Assembly (NCBI GenBank): GCA_904390925.1
Contig: CAJFMB010000014.1
Coordinates: 1-40,366 of the forward strand
DNA: 40,366 nt
Direction of reading: 5' to 3'
Source: an uncultured Subdoligranulum sp.
GTDB taxonomy: Bacteria > Bacillota > Clostridia > Oscillospirales > Ruminococcaceae
Shown here: one piece after another, positions 30,646 through 35,716 of the stretch
Layout: each line of letters starts with the position of its first letter
Numbering within the stretch: the stretch's first letter is position 1
The notes under the pieces: generated by a model
What the model was told of the DNA's origin: nothing
The model's input: only the letters and a program-made list of their open reading frames with translations
Database searches by the model: none
Made by a program: the position numbers and the translations under genes

Positions 30646-32256
30646 ATGGCTGTATTGAAGGGAATCAAAGTCTCATCCGGTGTTGCAGTCGGGCCGGTTG
30701 TCCGGCTGGACCGCGGCATTGTCGGTCTGCACCGTATTGTCAGCGACCCCTTCCGCGAGCGTGCCCTTTACGAGGCCGCCATTGTCCTGGCCAAGGATGA
30801 ACTGCGCCGCTTGCAGCAGCATTCACAGGGGGCGGACGCCGACATCCTGATGTTCCAGATTGCTTTGCTGGAGGACGAATCCTTTACCAACGAGATCGGC
30901 GACTACATTGCGGCCGGCGCCGGAAGTGCCGCTGCGGTGGAACGGGCGGAAAAGATTTTTGCCGCCCGCCTGAACAATGTGGACAACGAGTACATACGTC
31001 AGCGCAGTGTGGATGTTCGGGATGCCTGCCGCCGTGTGGTAGACATTCTGGACGGCAGGCCCCGCCAGAAACTGCAATTGACCGAGCCGGTGATCATTGC
31101 CGCCGACCTGTTTTTCCCCAGCGATATTTTTGCCATTGACCGGGATATGATCCTGGGTCTGATTGCCGACGGGGACAGCGATACCAGCCATGCCGCCATC
31201 ATGTCGCGCACCATGGGCATTCCGGCGGTGTTCAATCTGGGTAAGGAAGCCACAATCGGATTGAAAGGGCGGGAGGTACTGCTGGACGGATTGTCCGGTA
31301 CAGTCACTTCCGAGCCGACGCCCGACGACATTGTGGCGGCCAATCACCGCCTGGCTCTGTTTGAGCGCAAGAACCGCAAACAGCATGCACTGGCCAGAAA
31401 GCCCTGCCTGACCCGGGATGGCACCCGCGTGGCGCTGTTTGCCAGTGCCTCCACACCGGAGGACATCGAAAACGCCATGCACGCCGGCGCCGATGCCATT
31501 GGCCTGGTGCGGACCGAGCAGCTGTTGCTGGACCACGCCACCGAGGCGCAGCAGTATTTCCGGTATATCAGCTGCCTGGCTGCCGCGGCCGGGAAAACGG
31601 TGGCGGTGCGTACCGGCGATGTGGGTGCCGATGATGCCGCCCCCTGGGTGGAGGATGTGCGCCGTGCCGCTGAGAACCGCCGGCTGCTGCGCACCCAGAT
31701 CACCGCGCTGCTGCGCGCCGGAACCCGGGGCGAGCTGTATGTGATGCTGCCCATGATCACCGGCCCCGAAGAATGGGACGATGTGATGCAGGAGGTGGAA
31801 CACTGCAAGGAACATCTGGAACGCCGCGGGGTTGAGTTTGACAAGGATCTGGAGTTTGGTTGCCTGATCGAAATCCCGGCGGCGGCGTTGGTGGCCGATC
31901 AGATCATTGACCATGGAGCCAAATTCCTGGCCATTGATATTGATGACCTGGTCCGCTATACGCTGGCGGCCAACACCAAGGACGGGTCCCGGCGGTATGG
32001 CCGGGCGGATGCCCCGGCGGTGCGGCGCCTGGTGAATATGGTATGCCGCATGGCGAAGGACCGCAATGTGCCGGTCTTTATGTGCGGTGTCAAGACCAAT
32101 GCGCTGCCTGCCATGGAAACCTACCTGCGGGACGGCATCCACGCCTACTGTATGGAGGCGGCCATCCTCAACGATCTGAAGGCAAAATTCATGGATCTGG
32201 ACCTGAACCAGGCTCCGACGCAGGAAGAACCGGATAAAACATTGCCGACAGCATAA
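30646..32256 (+). CDS. Divergent PTS Enzyme I-like protein
   Basis: 536 residues (Enzyme I is usually 570-575). The order matches Enzyme I: an HPr-binding/phospho-His domain (KGIKVSSGVAVGPV, VDNEYIRQRSVDVRD, TSHAAIMSRTMGIPAV, phospho-His H182) and a PEP-binding barrel (GLVRTEQLLLD, RTQITALLRAG, LIEIPAAALVAD with E409, C480). Many PEP-site residues are changed: GGRTSH reads DSDTSH, RTLDIGGDK reads RTGDVGADD, NPxLGxR is missing, GTNDL reads DIDDL, and CGEMAGD reads CGVKTNA. It may be a paralogue that no longer uses PEP normally. AAAGGAGG 7 bases before the ATG sets the start. No HPr or EII genes are nearby. Confidence 0.8.
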   Translation: MAVLKGIKVSSGVAVGPVVRLDRGIVGLHRIVSDPFRERALYEAAIVLAKDELRRLQQHSQGADADILMFQIALLEDESFTNEIGDYIAAGAGSAAAVERAEKIFAARLNNVDNEYIRQRSVDVRDACRRVVDILDGRPRQKLQLTEPVIIAADLFFPSDIFAIDRDMILGLIADGDSDTSHAAIMSRTMGIPAVFNLGKEATIGLKGREVLLDGLSGTVTSEPTPDDIVAANHRLALFERKNRKQHALARKPCLTRDGTRVALFASASTPEDIENAMHAGADAIGLVRTEQLLLDHATEAQQYFRYISCLAAAAGKTVAVRTGDVGADDAAPWVEDVRRAAENRRLLRTQITALLRAGTRGELYVMLPMITGPEEWDDVMQEVEHCKEHLERRGVEFDKDLEFGCLIEIPAAALVADQIIDHGAKFLAIDIDDLVRYTLAANTKDGSRRYGRADAPAVRRLVNMVCRMAKDRNVPVFMCGVKTNALPAMETYLRDGIHAYCMEAAILNDLKAKFMDLDLNQAPTQEEPDKTLPTA

Positions 32257-32341
32257 GACGATCCACCGATGAAAATGTAGCTTCTTTGCAGTGCAAAACC
32301 GGGAGAAAACGACCTCTGGCAAAAAATCGCGCAAAAATGTG

Positions 32342-32370
32342 TTGACAAACGGATTCGGATGTGCTTAAAT
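32342..32370 (+). promoter_or_regulatory. Promoter of the T-box-controlled importer
   Basis: TTGACA (32342-32347), 17-base spacer, TTAAAT (32365-32370). The start near 32377 is directly before the T-box stem I. The stretch CAAAAATG ... TTGACAAACGGATT closely matches the sequence before the patatin gene. Confidence 0.75.
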
Positions 32371-32379
32371 AGCTTTAAA

Positions 32380-32669
32380 CCAATGAAGCGAAAGTAAAAC
32401 TGCAGGCGCACGTACAGAGAGCCCCCGTTGCTGGGAATGGGGCCGAAAGCGGAGCAGACAAATGGTTCGCCGAGGGCACAGGGAAAGGCAGCTTGCCGAG
32501 TATCTGTTGACGGAAGCCTCCGTTACAGGGCAGGGGAATGCTGGTTCTCCGCAAAGGGGCTGCGCCAAAACGCAGCAAGCAAGGTGGCACCGCAGGTCAT
32601 ACAATCTTTTCAAGATTTGTCCTGTCCTTGCACAACACCCGTTCGGGGTTGTGCGGGGGCAGTTTTTTT
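32380..32669 (+). promoter_or_regulatory. T-box riboswitch (tRNA-sensing), probably tRNA-Trp
   Basis: Stem I: GCGAA (32388-32392) pairs with TTCGC (32466-32470), and CTGC (32400-32403) with GCAG (32454-32457). These frame a specifier loop with AGTA (32393-32396) on one side and ACAAATGG on the other; AGAGAGCC and GTTGCTGGGAAT follow the stem I consensus. Stem III is GCTGCG/CGCAGC. The T-box sequence AAGGTGGCACCGCAGG is at 32581-32596. Antiterminator: GCAAGG (32579-32584) with CCTTGC (32626-32631). Terminator: 32622-32662 plus T7 (32663-32669). The specifier is read as TGG (32463-32465), favoured by the transporter type; ATG (32462-32464) is the alternative because the base after TGG is not a purine. 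Confidence 0.9.
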
Positions 32670-32727
32670 ATACCTTCCGCAACATGCAACACCCCGGCTC
32701 TGTTGGACCCGGAAAAGGAGCATACAC

Positions 32728-32766
32728 ATGAACTACAACACAAATCTCCCCGGCCGGCGATGGTGA
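32728..32766 (+). CDS. Putative 12-residue leader peptide ending in Trp
   Basis: ATG at 32728 with AAAAGGAG (32713-32720) 7 bases upstream opens a 12-codon frame, MNYNTNLPGRRW, ending TGG-TGA (32761-32766). It lies between the T-box terminator and the importer's first gene. The last sense codon is the only Trp codon and sits next to the stop. TCTCC at 32745-32749, within its coding region, could pair with GGAGA in the ribosome site of the importer gene (about 32830-32834). This matches the idea of translation-level control by charged tRNA-Trp, as known for the Bacillus subtilis anti-TRAP operon, which also has a T-box followed by a Trp leader peptide. The expression and role here are inferred. 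Confidence 0.5.
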   Translation: MNYNTNLPGRRW

Positions 32767-32840
32767 TGGCTCAGACAAAACCTTGCCTGACAATTCCGCA
32801 GACCATCCCAACACAAAATGCCAAGAAAAGGAGAATTCCC

Positions 32841-33878
32841 ATGAAAAAACTGTTTGCTGTTATGACCGCTTCCGCTTTTGCTCTGTCCCTGGCCGCCTGC
32901 TCGGGTTCGTCCGCCTCCGGCAGCTCTTCCGCCTCCGGCAGCCAGGCTGGTGCCACCGCCGAAACTACCGATGCTGCCAGCTACCGCATTGCCATTGTGC
33001 AGCAGATGGACCATTCCTCGCTGGACCAGATCCGCACCGCCATTGAGGCGGAGCTGGACGCCCGTGCCGCTGCCGACGGTGTCACCATTGAGTACAAGGA
33101 ATTCAATGGACAGAACGATGCCACCATGCTCAACCAGATCGGTACCCAGGTGGTTTCCGACGGCTATGACGCCATCATTCCCATTGCCTCGCTGGCTGCC
33201 CAGTGCATGGTCACTGCCGCCGACGGTGATATCCCGGTGATCTACGCCGCCATTTCCGACCCCGCCACCGCCGGCCTGACGGATCTGGAAAATGTGACCG
33301 GCACCTCCGACGCGCTGGATACCAACATGATCATGGATATGATGTTCGCCGTCAACCCGGAGATCCAGACCGTCGGCCTGCTCTATTCCAACTCGGAGCC
33401 CAACTCCGAAACCCCCATTGCCGAGGCAAAGGCTTATCTGGACGACAAGGGCATCGACTATGTGGAAGCCACCGGCAACACCACCGACGAGGTCCTGACC
33501 GCTGTCAGCGGCCTGACCGACCGGGTGAACGCCGTCTTTACCCCCACTGACAACGTGATCATGGGCGCTGCCGGTGCCGTCTCTGAGACGCTGACCGACG
33601 CAGGTATCCCCTTCTACACGGGTGCTGATTCCTTCGTCACGGCAGGTGCCTTTGCCACCTGCGGCGTCAACTATGACGATCTGGGCGCCACCACCGCCGA
33701 CATCGCCGTGGATGCACTGGAATCCGGCAGCGTTCCCGCCGACTATCATGTGATGGAGGGCGGCATCATCACCGTCAATACCGAGACCGCTGCAGCACTG
33801 GGCATTGATTACAGCGCCTTCAACGACATGGCCAAGAGCGTTGTGGAAGTCACCACCGCCGCCGATACCGCCGAATAA
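32841..33878 (+). CDS. ABC transporter substrate-binding lipoprotein (TrpX/ABC_sub_bind type)
   Basis: 345 residues. Lipobox LAAC (Cys20), a Ser/Gly/Ala-rich linker (about 21-45), then a periplasmic-binding-like fold of the ABC_sub_bind family: YRIAIVQQMDHSSLDQIRTAIEAEL, FNGQNDATMLNQIGTQVVSDGYDAIIPIAS, VIYAAISDPATAGLT, VGLLYSNSEPNSE, AVFTPTDNVIMGA and GVNYDDLGATTADIAVDAL. T-box-controlled members are the TrpX proteins proposed to bind tryptophan; here the T-box upstream and the Trp-ending leader peptide agree with that. AAAAGGAG before the ATG at 32841 sets the start. An in-frame start at 32538 lies inside the T-box and is rejected. Permease and ATPase follow. Confidence 0.88.
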   Translation: MKKLFAVMTASAFALSLAACSGSSASGSSSASGSQAGATAETTDAASYRIAIVQQMDHSSLDQIRTAIEAELDARAAADGVTIEYKEFNGQNDATMLNQIGTQVVSDGYDAIIPIASLAAQCMVTAADGDIPVIYAAISDPATAGLTDLENVTGTSDALDTNMIMDMMFAVNPEIQTVGLLYSNSEPNSETPIAEAKAYLDDKGIDYVEATGNTTDEVLTAVSGLTDRVNAVFTPTDNVIMGAAGAVSETLTDAGIPFYTGADSFVTAGAFATCGVNYDDLGATTADIAVDALESGSVPADYHVMEGGIITVNTETAAALGIDYSAFNDMAKSVVEVTTAADTAE

Positions 33879-33978
33879 TCAACAGGGGACTGATTCAAAG
33901 GAATCCGCATCGCGGGGCAGGGGAAACCTTGCCCCGTACGGTGCTTTACAAGCAAATCCGCAAAGGAGCTGTTTACGC

Positions 33979-34905
33979 ATGATATCCACCGCAATTGTGC
34001 TGAGCGCGCTGGAGCTGGGCTTCATCTATGCCCTGGTCGCCATGGCACTGTTTCTGAGTTTCCGCGTGCTGAATATCGCGGACATGACCACCGACGGTGC
34101 CTTTACCCTGGGCTGCGCGGTCTCGGCCACCATGGCGGTGGCGGGACATCCCATTCTGGGGCTGTTTGCCGCCATGATCGCCGGATCGGCAGCCGGATTC
34201 ATCACCGCGCTGCTGCAGACCCGGCTGGGGGTGCCCTCCATTCTGGCCGGCATCATCACCAACACCGGCCTGTATACCATCAATCTGGCGGTGATGGGCT
34301 TCTCCTCCAATGTCCCCATGCTCAAGACCAACACCATTTTTACCATGCTGGAGGACCTTCTGGGGGAGGATTTCCCCTCCAAGCTGCTGCTGGCGGCGTT
34401 GATCACTGCCGTTGCCTGCGTGCTGCTGATCCTGTTCCTGGGCACCCGGCTGGGCCTTTCCATCCGTGCCACCGGCGATAACCCGGATATGGTGCGGGCC
34501 AGCTCCATCAATACCGCTTTCACCATCACGGTGGGGCTCTGCGTTGCCAATGCCTTCACCGCACTGTCCGGCGCCGTGCTGGCACAGTACCAGCGCTCGG
34601 CGGACATCAACCTGGGCACCGGCATGGTGGTGATCGGCCTGGCCTCCCTGATCATCGGCGAGACCCTCTTTGGACGCGGCAGCCTGTGGATCAAGGCGGT
34701 GGCCGCGGTGGCAGGCAGCATTATCTACCGCTTCATCATTGCCCTTGCCATGCGGGCAAACCTCCCCTCCGAGGCGCTCAAACTGATCTCCGCCATCATC
34801 GTGGTGCTGGCCATCTCGATGCCTGCCATCAAGAAGGGCATTGCCTTCCAGCGCCGCCGCTATGCCGCCATGCACGGGAAGGGAGGTGCCGGCCATGATG
34901 CTTGA
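33979..34905 (+). CDS. ABC transporter permease (TrpY type, LivH/RbsC-like)
   Basis: 308 residues with about eight membrane helices of the branched-chain/ribose permease type: LELGFIYALVAMALFLSFRVLNIADMTTDGAFTLGCA near the N-terminus, GTRLGLSIRATGDNPDMVRASSIN (ATPase-contact loop), and GMVVIGLASLIIGETLFGRGSLWIKAVAAVAGSIIYR. This permease class partners ABC_sub_bind proteins. AAAGGAG lies 10 bases before the ATG at 33979; the 100-base gap after the binding protein has no strong terminator. Its end overlaps the ATPase gene by 11 bases. Likely substrate tryptophan or a related compound, by context only. Confidence 0.9.
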   Translation: MISTAIVLSALELGFIYALVAMALFLSFRVLNIADMTTDGAFTLGCAVSATMAVAGHPILGLFAAMIAGSAAGFITALLQTRLGVPSILAGIITNTGLYTINLAVMGFSSNVPMLKTNTIFTMLEDLLGEDFPSKLLLAALITAVACVLLILFLGTRLGLSIRATGDNPDMVRASSINTAFTITVGLCVANAFTALSGAVLAQYQRSADINLGTGMVVIGLASLIIGETLFGRGSLWIKAVAAVAGSIIYRFIIALAMRANLPSEALKLISAIIVVLAISMPAIKKGIAFQRRRYAAMHGKGGAGHDA

Positions 34906-35716
34906 ACTTCGCGGGGTACAGAAAACCTTCAACCCCGGTACTGTCAATGAAAAGAAGGCGCTCAACGGCATCGACCTGGCACTGGAACAGGGCGATTTCG
35001 TCACCATCGTCGGCTCCAACGGTGCCGGCAAGTCCACGTTGTTCAATGCCATTGCCGGCAGCTTTATCCCGGATGCCGGGTCGATTGTGCTGGACGGGCA
35101 GGACATCACCTTCCAGCCGGATTACCGCCGCTCCAAAACCATCGGGCGGCTGTTCCAGGACCCGCTCAAGGGCACCGCACCCAGCATGACCATTGAGGAA
35201 AACCTGGCGCTGGCCTATCTGCGGGCGTCGGGGCATACTTCGCCCTTCTCCCGCATCTCCAAGGCGGAGCGGGAACTGTTCCGGGAGCGGCTGGCCGCGC
35301 TGGATCTGGGGCTGGAATTCCGGATGAAACACCCGGTGGGGCTGCTGTCCGGCGGCCAGCGCCAAGCACTGACCCTTCTGATGGCCACCCTCGTCACCCC
35401 GAAGCTGCTGCTTCTGGACGAGCACACCGCCGCTTTGGACCCGGCCACTGCCGACAAGGTGCTGGCACTGACCAAAAAGATTGTGGCGGAGCACAACATC
35501 ACCTGCCTGATGATCACCCACAACATGCACGCTGCGCTGGAACTGGGCAACCGGACCCTGATGATGGACTCCGGCCGGATTGTTCTGGACGTGGGCGGCG
35601 CCGAACGCGCCGGCATGACGGTGGACGATCTGCTGGAACGCTTTGCCCGCGGCACCGGCCATAAGCTGGACAATGACCGCATTCTGCTGAGCAAGGAGCA
35701 GTCCGCGGCCCGGTAA
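34895..35716 (+). CDS. ABC transporter ATP-binding protein (TrpZ type)
   Basis: 273 residues: Walker A GSNGAGKST, Q-loop RLFQDPLKG, signature LLSGGQRQAL, Walker B LLLLDEHTAALDP and switch MITHNMHAALELGNRTL. The His in LDEHTAALDP, where most have a Pro, is common in this transporter subgroup. It energises import with the preceding permease. Start: GGGAGG 8 bases before the ATG at 34895; the ATG at 34898 is an alternative. The three importer genes end at a clear terminator (35739-35779). Confidence 0.92.
   Translation: MMLELRGVQKTFNPGTVNEKKALNGIDLALEQGDFVTIVGSNGAGKSTLFNAIAGSFIPDAGSIVLDGQDITFQPDYRRSKTIGRLFQDPLKGTAPSMTIEENLALAYLRASGHTSPFSRISKAERELFRERLAALDLGLEFRMKHPVGLLSGGQRQALTLLMATLVTPKLLLLDEHTAALDPATADKVLALTKKIVAEHNITCLMITHNMHAALELGNRTLMMDSGRIVLDVGGAERAGMTVDDLLERFARGTGHKLDNDRILLSKEQSAAR

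Follow-up and report, generated by a model that had tools for sequence, protein, structure and literature searches.

In Bacillus subtilis, Chen and Yanofsky are said to have described in 2003 and 2004 an rtpA leader in which a Trp T-box is joined to a Trp leader peptide. The rtpA leader peptide contains several Trp codons, and its stop lies next to the ribosome site. Classical amino-acid attenuators include trpL. The ilvB uORFs (PMC10272879) belong to this type as well. The accessible part of PMC11255114 gives the Trp T-box plus Trp leader peptide for the leader of rtpA (anti-TRAP). The TrpX-type importer trpXYZ of Streptococcus suis is preceded by a T-box with a UGG specifier and is induced by Trp limitation, as described in the accessible text of PMC9382623; the terms 'leader peptide' and 'open reading frame' have 0 occurrences in its main text. 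No report of a leader peptide located behind a T-box and before a Trp importer was found in the accessible portions of the open-access literature, which is weak evidence of absence.

The importer operon and its genome

The window, by which we mean the whole analysed stretch of 40,366 nucleotides, lies on a contig (C14) of a 2.14-Mb genome which is 85% complete. The orthologues closest to it belong to genomes named Gemmiger, the others to uncultured Oscillospiraceae and Clostridia, and the window is assigned to the genus Gemmiger. The elements follow each other in the order T-box, terminator, 12-codon frame with its own ribosome site, and TrpX-like lipoprotein gene. The operon (32841-35716) consists of the genes for a substrate-binding lipoprotein (PF04392), for a permease of the BPD_transp_2 type and for an ATPase.

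32827..32834, + strand: importer ribosome site AAAGGAGA, from the sequence (GGAGA at 32830-32834)
32841..33878, + strand: TrpX-like substrate-binding lipoprotein, ATG at 32841, 0 Trp residues (PF04392, 151.9 bits, cut-off 25.9)
33979..34905, + strand: ABC permease, BPD_transp_2 (PF02653, 77.5 bits)
34895..35716, + strand: ABC ATPase (PF00005, 101.6 bits)

The lipoprotein is assigned to the ABC_sub_bind domain family (PF04392) with a score above the cut-off. Its sole NCBIfam match is NF041285 (TrpX), and because the score of 185.8 bits lies under the equivalog cut-off of 390 the protein is named only TrpX-like. Tryptophan is the probable substrate, as suggested by the T-box in front of the operon. 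The same genome encodes a second substrate-binding protein (L126, G000:C1:40832-41755) which is 32% identical and has neither a CGA-TGG leader frame nor a T-box core within 600 bases upstream.

The T-box and its tryptophan specifier

32374..32627, + strand: T-box leader (RF00230) of the tRNA-Trp class with UGG as specifier, reaching from stem I to the antiterminator
~32622..32669, + strand: T-box terminator hairpin and T run, read by eye from the sequence

An earlier note on this DNA had claimed a complete T-box. The covariance model RF00230 is indeed matched end to end (positions 1-219) with 65.7 bits and an E value of 5e-14, though this score is below the Rfam gathering score of 93. One of the nine T-boxes of the genome exceeds the gathering score, and seven of the eight others stay below it like that of the window. 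The T-box core GGTGGCACC starts at 32583. The specifier stands in the context ACAAATGGTTC and its triplet is UGG; a specifier for another amino acid, which the earlier note had named as a refuting outcome, does not occur here. Among 88 distinct T-box regions of the collected loci, 57 show the strict TGG pattern and 30 more AATGG; one (L064) shows neither.

A terminator consensus scan of 32250-32860 listed no terminator and missed even the visible one of the T-box. By eye, no second terminator was seen between the leader frame and the importer gene.

Another T-box of the same genome (L003) also has a UGG specifier and precedes a protein which, judged from its translation, has the look of a tryptophanyl-tRNA synthetase (trpS). 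No leader frame is present there, and the terminator is followed directly by a ribosome site and an ATG. Of the remaining T-boxes of the genome, apart from L002, which meets a contig end, none is followed ahead of its gene by a similar leader that starts with ATG and has a strong ribosome site. Weak GTG/TTG frames with a site score of 4 to 5 follow the T-boxes L001, L004 and L006, and the ATG frame behind L007 overlaps the gene.

A short coding frame behind the terminator

32713..32720, + strand: Shine-Dalgarno sequence AAAAGGAG of the short frame, from the sequence
32728..32766, + strand: leader-peptide frame MNYNTNLPGRRW, ATG at 32728, TGA at 32764-32766, conserved and with a synonymous substitution pattern

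Upstream regions were collected from 30 genus loci, 80 named loci, 12 more stretches and 35 order-level loci. A script scanned 111 regions of the first three sets, near-copies and several distant paralogues (among L125-L131) included; L040-L048 were kept outside the scan (their contigs are the same as those of genus loci), and L067 and L071 gave no start. A frame which reads CGATGG as Arg-Trp is present in 71 of the 111 regions. A T-box core was recognised in 69 of these 71, the remaining two being one locus counted twice with a contig end close by. Counted with near-copies, 69 of the 71 frames start with ATG and 70 are preceded by a ribosome site of at least 4 matching bases. The Trp residue falls at position 8 to 12 of the leader. 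The 71 frames correspond to 61 distinct ones, and with L130 left out (importer start uncertain) a set of 60 was obtained. L084 and L087, which carry the frame as well and were missed by the script, are outside this set, as are the 35 loci L157-L191.

Within Gemmiger an orthologue of the lipoprotein was found at E 1e-60 in 33 of 35 genomes, and all 33 have the frame. The separate 12-codon frame with its own ribosome site, which had been noticed in the window, is thus a kept element. That relatives might retain the T-box and lose the frame or its Trp codon had been named as an outcome that would refute the proposed double sensing. It does not occur within the genus, where the Trp codon is kept too (33 of 33), but it is seen in distant T-box importer loci. 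Of the 40 regions in which the script found no frame, 28 have a T-box core, and loci named Flavonifractor, Lachnoclostridium, Merdimonas and Erysipelotrichaceae are among the frame-less regions. The frame occurs in other Oscillospirales as well, and 4 of 35 further order-level loci have it. On a tree of 100 lipoproteins its presence needs 6 changes, compared to 30.8 with shuffled labels. In 70 rows of lipoproteins with a leader, counted with near-copies, a single Trp occurs among 23,638 residues; lipoproteins which lack a leader are also almost Trp-free (4 Trp in 13,861 residues).

The substitution pattern was analysed in 158 sequence pairs of equal length and at least 60% DNA identity. In the leader frame a share of 0.58 of the single-base codon differences is synonymous, whereas 0.20 is expected. 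The corresponding shares in the other two frames are 0.13 and 0.20, with 0.18 and 0.24 expected. A version filtered for peptide identity gives 0.68, a filter which itself favours synonymous change. Because it is conserved and shows this synonymous pattern, the frame is more than a chance occurrence, and judged by these comparisons it is real, translated and under coding selection.

The position of the leader stop varies. Among the 60 sequences it lies between -109 and -17 relative to the importer, and seven leaders have no stop before the importer start, six of them in frame with the importer. Leaders fused in frame with the lipoprotein are those of L034, L038, L039, L059, L072 and L075, and by translation L087; such stop-less leaders would yield an N-terminally extended lipoprotein. 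Extra intergenic sequence between T-box, leader and importer is found in L063, L079, L084 and L091, and the leader of L084 lies near the T-box, about 370 nt from the importer gene. Faecalibacterium sp. UBA7177 (L093) has the T-box but CGATGT at the leader position, and a search for an Arg-Trp frame there gave nothing.

Candidates for further copies were rejected. The genome of the window contains 25 pattern matches, two of them in frame, namely the one of the window and L137, which sits inside a 736-codon open frame. When a looser pattern was applied to five Gemmiger genomes, each had between 116 and 206 matches; among the matches listed, the leader-like L222 is the N-terminus of a 586-residue frame.

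The CGA-TGG codon pair

32758..32763, + strand: CGA-TGG pair (Arg-Trp), proposed stall site, TGG at 32761-32763 (33 of 33 Gemmiger genomes with an orthologue)
32803..32808, + strand: CCATCC, which can pair with GATGG of the codon pair (pairing probability in the window 0.05-0.85, depending on the stretch)

The earlier note had emphasised that the peptide ends with Trp. This proved to be incidental, since TGG is directly followed by TGA in only 12 of the 60 distinct sequences and by an Arg codon in 42; the conserved element is the CGA-TGG pair. The constancy of the pair in 60 of 60 distinct frames is no test, because the frames were found by searching for CGATGG, and the only counts free of that circularity are the genus-wide one and the scan of the pair-less regions. 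In the 40 pair-less regions an early Trp is never preceded by a different Arg codon in any short frame that has a ribosome site; L084 is listed among these regions because its CGA-TGG sits further upstream. Most leaders contain one Trp codon, and the pair is duplicated in L032, L073 and L158.

CGA accounts for 2 of the 206 Arg codons in eleven frames of the window which were taken as genes. The other Arg codons of the leaders are mixed (AGA 15, CGG 10, CGA 6, CGT 5, AGG 5, CGC 3). Among the tRNA genes that were detected are those for Arg(ACG) and Arg(TCT) and a single one for Trp(CCA). A gene for Arg(TCG) is absent from this list, which is incomplete, because Arg(CCG) is missing too. According to the accessible part of PMC10454642, CGA is probably read through inosine, and runs of CGA cause no slowing of translation in B. 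subtilis, which argues against a simple slow-codon view. The AUG inside CGATGG was rejected as the start of a second frame, which stops before the importer in 31 of 60 sequences and shows no preferred frame.

The hexamer CGAUGG could primarily be an RNA element which pairs with a downstream CCRTC or binds a factor, translation of the frame being secondary. We regard this as unlikely. It would account for the constancy of CGATGG in the genus, where even the free third base of CGA does not vary. CCRTC, the complement of GATGG, occurs in 32 of 60 spacers as compared to 9.3 in shuffles (maximum 20), and the duplex of CGATGG with the spacer is stronger than expected in 45 of 60 (-6.46 vs -5.32 kcal/mol); a control segment shows neither the enrichment nor the excess. 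However, the frame has a ribosome site and is under strong coding constraint, 28 of the 60 spacers lack CCRTC, and L185 (MFILSANWCCGT) keeps the Trp codon with AAT in place of CGA. CGATGG itself does not change, which leaves no covariation that could speak for the pairing.

Arg-Trp is constant in the frames which were detected, and PG(R/K) or KE often stands before it. This would also fit an arrest peptide, and Trp-dependent arrest peptides such as TnaC exist (PMC8429421, accessible part). A nascent chain ending in (E/K/R)RW would then stall in a TnaC-like manner for a small molecule, free Trp or another ligand, and not for uncharged tRNA. This explanation appears quite unlikely. Apart from RW the peptide diverges (NLPGRRW, LKERWR, LAERWRG, KLPGKRW, LSRRWRP) and varies in length, with 7 to 11 residues before the Trp, and a peptide sequence does not explain why CGA is constant among six Arg codons. 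Furthermore, the importer would have to be turned off by free Trp and yet be turned on, through the T-box, by starvation.

Predicted pairing of the leader with the importer ribosome region

To compute the cost of opening the importer ribosome region, the 30 nt around TGG were barred from pairing as an approximate ribosome footprint, and native sequences were compared with sequences whose flanks were shuffled and whose CGATGG was kept. This test was used instead of a first accessibility test (mean 0.48 vs 0.51), in which the ribosome site was misplaced in some rows. Over the 60 sequences masking lowers the opening cost on average by 1.93 kcal/mol, compared to 0.34 in shuffles, and the relief beats the shuffles in 46 of them. 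In a set of 51 less similar representatives the effect is positive for 38 (p 8e-6, species not being independent), and in 13 the relief is no greater than in shuffles. A longer stretch, which takes in 40 nt ahead of the leader and 80 nt of the gene, gives a relief of 1.03 vs 0.11 kcal/mol (32 of 51, p 0.014). For a shorter stretch the values are 1.80 vs 0.61 kcal/mol (33 of 51, p 0.002). When nine footprint positions are compared, TGG gives the largest relief, a peak which is only relative because native exceeds shuffled at all nine. Six-base masks map the relief to two places, about 12-18 nt ahead of the codon pair and 9-18 nt behind it; masking of CGATGG alone gives little relief.

Partners were also swapped between species. 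The pairing of the footprint with the ribosome region plus coding start then becomes weaker (permutation p 0.002). The 3' flank contributes with p 0.001 and the 5' flank marginally with p 0.03-0.04, all of these being values from eleven uncorrected tests. For CGATGG alone the same series of tests gives no species-specific pairing, either with the ribosome site (p 0.35) or with the coding start (p 0.74). Among the species outside Gemmiger the two flanks do not reach significance (p 0.15, 0.23). Taken as predicted folds, these data give statistical support to a fast-changing, family-wide pairing of the putative stall region with the importer ribosome region, which holds but weakens in longer folds.

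An excess of pairing between leader and importer ribosome region, above shuffles at all footprint positions, would also be compatible with a general translation enhancer or coupling device, in which ribosome traffic opens the importer site regardless of Trp; the stop-less leaders in frame with the importer (6 of 60) point in the same direction. We consider such a device very improbable, as it leaves unexplained both the CGA and the one Trp codon which is kept before a nearly Trp-free protein. A Rho-type control, in which the C-rich, G-poor spacer (32.5% C, 18.5% G; C > G in 55 of 60) is a Rho site with access set by the stopping place of the leader ribosome, is very improbable as judged by base composition, since the spacers of frame-less loci come close to it in C content (28.4% C and 20.4% G, with C > G in 21 of 28).

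For the window a more specific pairing had been suggested, in which TCTCC within the peptide frame masks GGAGA of the importer ribosome site.

32745..32749, + strand: TCTCC, possible mask of the importer ribosome site (kept 7 of 7 in the nearest clade)

The window and the six relatives closest to it all have both motifs (7 of 7). The predicted masking is less firm and depends on the stretch: the pairing probability ranges from 0.00 to 0.88 over 25 choices of stretch ends and amounts to 0.8-0.9 when the stretch of the family tests is folded. In the best fold of 32700-32870 the pairing is absent and CTCC pairs with the leader's own ribosome site, the main competitor for TCTCC in several stretches. 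That fold is no more stable than shuffles (z 0.83). The masking relief of the window itself is 1.0 kcal/mol.

Leaderless T-box importer loci (L088, L096, L101, L102, L103, L112, L114 and kin) show a different arrangement. Within the last 60 nt before their lipoprotein gene, just before the ribosome site, they carry a CATCTGCCRCCCAAATT-like element which is complementary to the T-box strand AATTTGGGTGG; the complementarity reaches p<0.05 against shuffles in 7 of 26. The T-box might be used here a second time, for translational control. In the leader group a complementarity of the spacer to the T-box core was considered and rejected (only 2 of 59 at p<0.05).

A possible two-layer control

We give about even chances to a control of the TrpX-type importer by two-layer sensing of uncharged tRNA-Trp, first by antitermination and then by ribosome stalling which frees translation. 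Several results count against it, among them the shrinking of the relief in longer folds, the representatives whose relief does not exceed that of shuffles, the distant leader of L084 and the near absence of Trp also from lipoproteins without a leader. In the first layer uncharged tRNA-Trp would cause the T-box to let RNA polymerase through. In the second, a ribosome on the read-through transcript would translate the leader up to the fixed CGA-UGG and, if charged Trp-tRNA is scarce, stall with UGG in the A site. The rare codon CGA, probably read by inosine-adenine wobble, would occupy the P site while UGG waits. The stalled ribosome would cover segments which otherwise pair with the importer ribosome-binding region, so that the importer is translated. 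With plentiful Trp-tRNA the ribosome would leave and the region would refold, and transcripts leaked past the T-box would stay poorly translated.

The T-box and the coding leader, their order, the fixation of CGA-TGG in the genus, the lack of such a leader before trpS and the excess pairing can be taken from sequence comparison and predicted folds. From these we infer the stalling, its dependence on Trp, a translational and not transcriptional second step and the reason for CGA. A rise of translation by a stall on uncharged tRNA-Trp would be compatible with the folding statistics. The purpose is probably that the stalled ribosome opens the importer gene only in real starvation, and a likely benefit is the silencing of transcripts which leak through the T-box while Trp-tRNA is charged.

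More tentatively, tandem tRNA-Trp sensors may be present clade-wide in gut Oscillospirales. The weak, inosine-read CGA in the P site would prime the stall at a single UGG, one control codon would do the work of a run, and importer translation would be gated by RNA pairings which change quickly around a stall site that stays fixed. We would not yet bet on this wider reading. If the two-layer control is real, serial sensing of tRNA charging, at transcription and then at translation, would be a recurrent design and not a peculiarity of anti-TRAP, and would serve here the tryptophan uptake of common gut bacteria. The conserved CGA-UGG also raises a sharp question, namely why one rare synonymous Arg codon stays fixed beside a control codon.

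Comparison with known systems

With the trpXYZ locus of S. suis the window shares the TrpX-type importer and the UGG T-box; the second, translated element with its Trp codon is the new part. The classical attenuators trpL and the ilvB uORFs are similar in that a control codon for the amino acid which the operon supplies lies in a short frame. In contrast to them, the leader is located here after the terminator and not before it, and usually contains one control codon and not a run.

The closest likeness is to rtpA, whose logic the earlier note had supposed to be applied here to uptake. In both cases Trp T-box antitermination is followed by a Trp leader, which by our reading would govern translation here as well. 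The Trp T-box, the conserved Trp-codon frame with its own ribosome site behind the terminator and under apparent coding selection, and the TrpX-like importer agree with that supposition. The several Trp codons and the leader stop close to the regulated ribosome site, as generally ascribed to rtpA, do not recur. As the stop moves from locus to locus, the mask common to these loci cannot be a terminating ribosome, and because the stop has no fixed place and there is usually one Trp codon, the device is not the same as that of rtpA. The regulated gene differs too, being an importer, and the usually single Trp codon stands in a CGA-TGG pair. By analogy, the best reading of the locus is an rtpA-like double sensing in an altered form, with an importer as the target and the CGA-TGG pair as the putative site of control.
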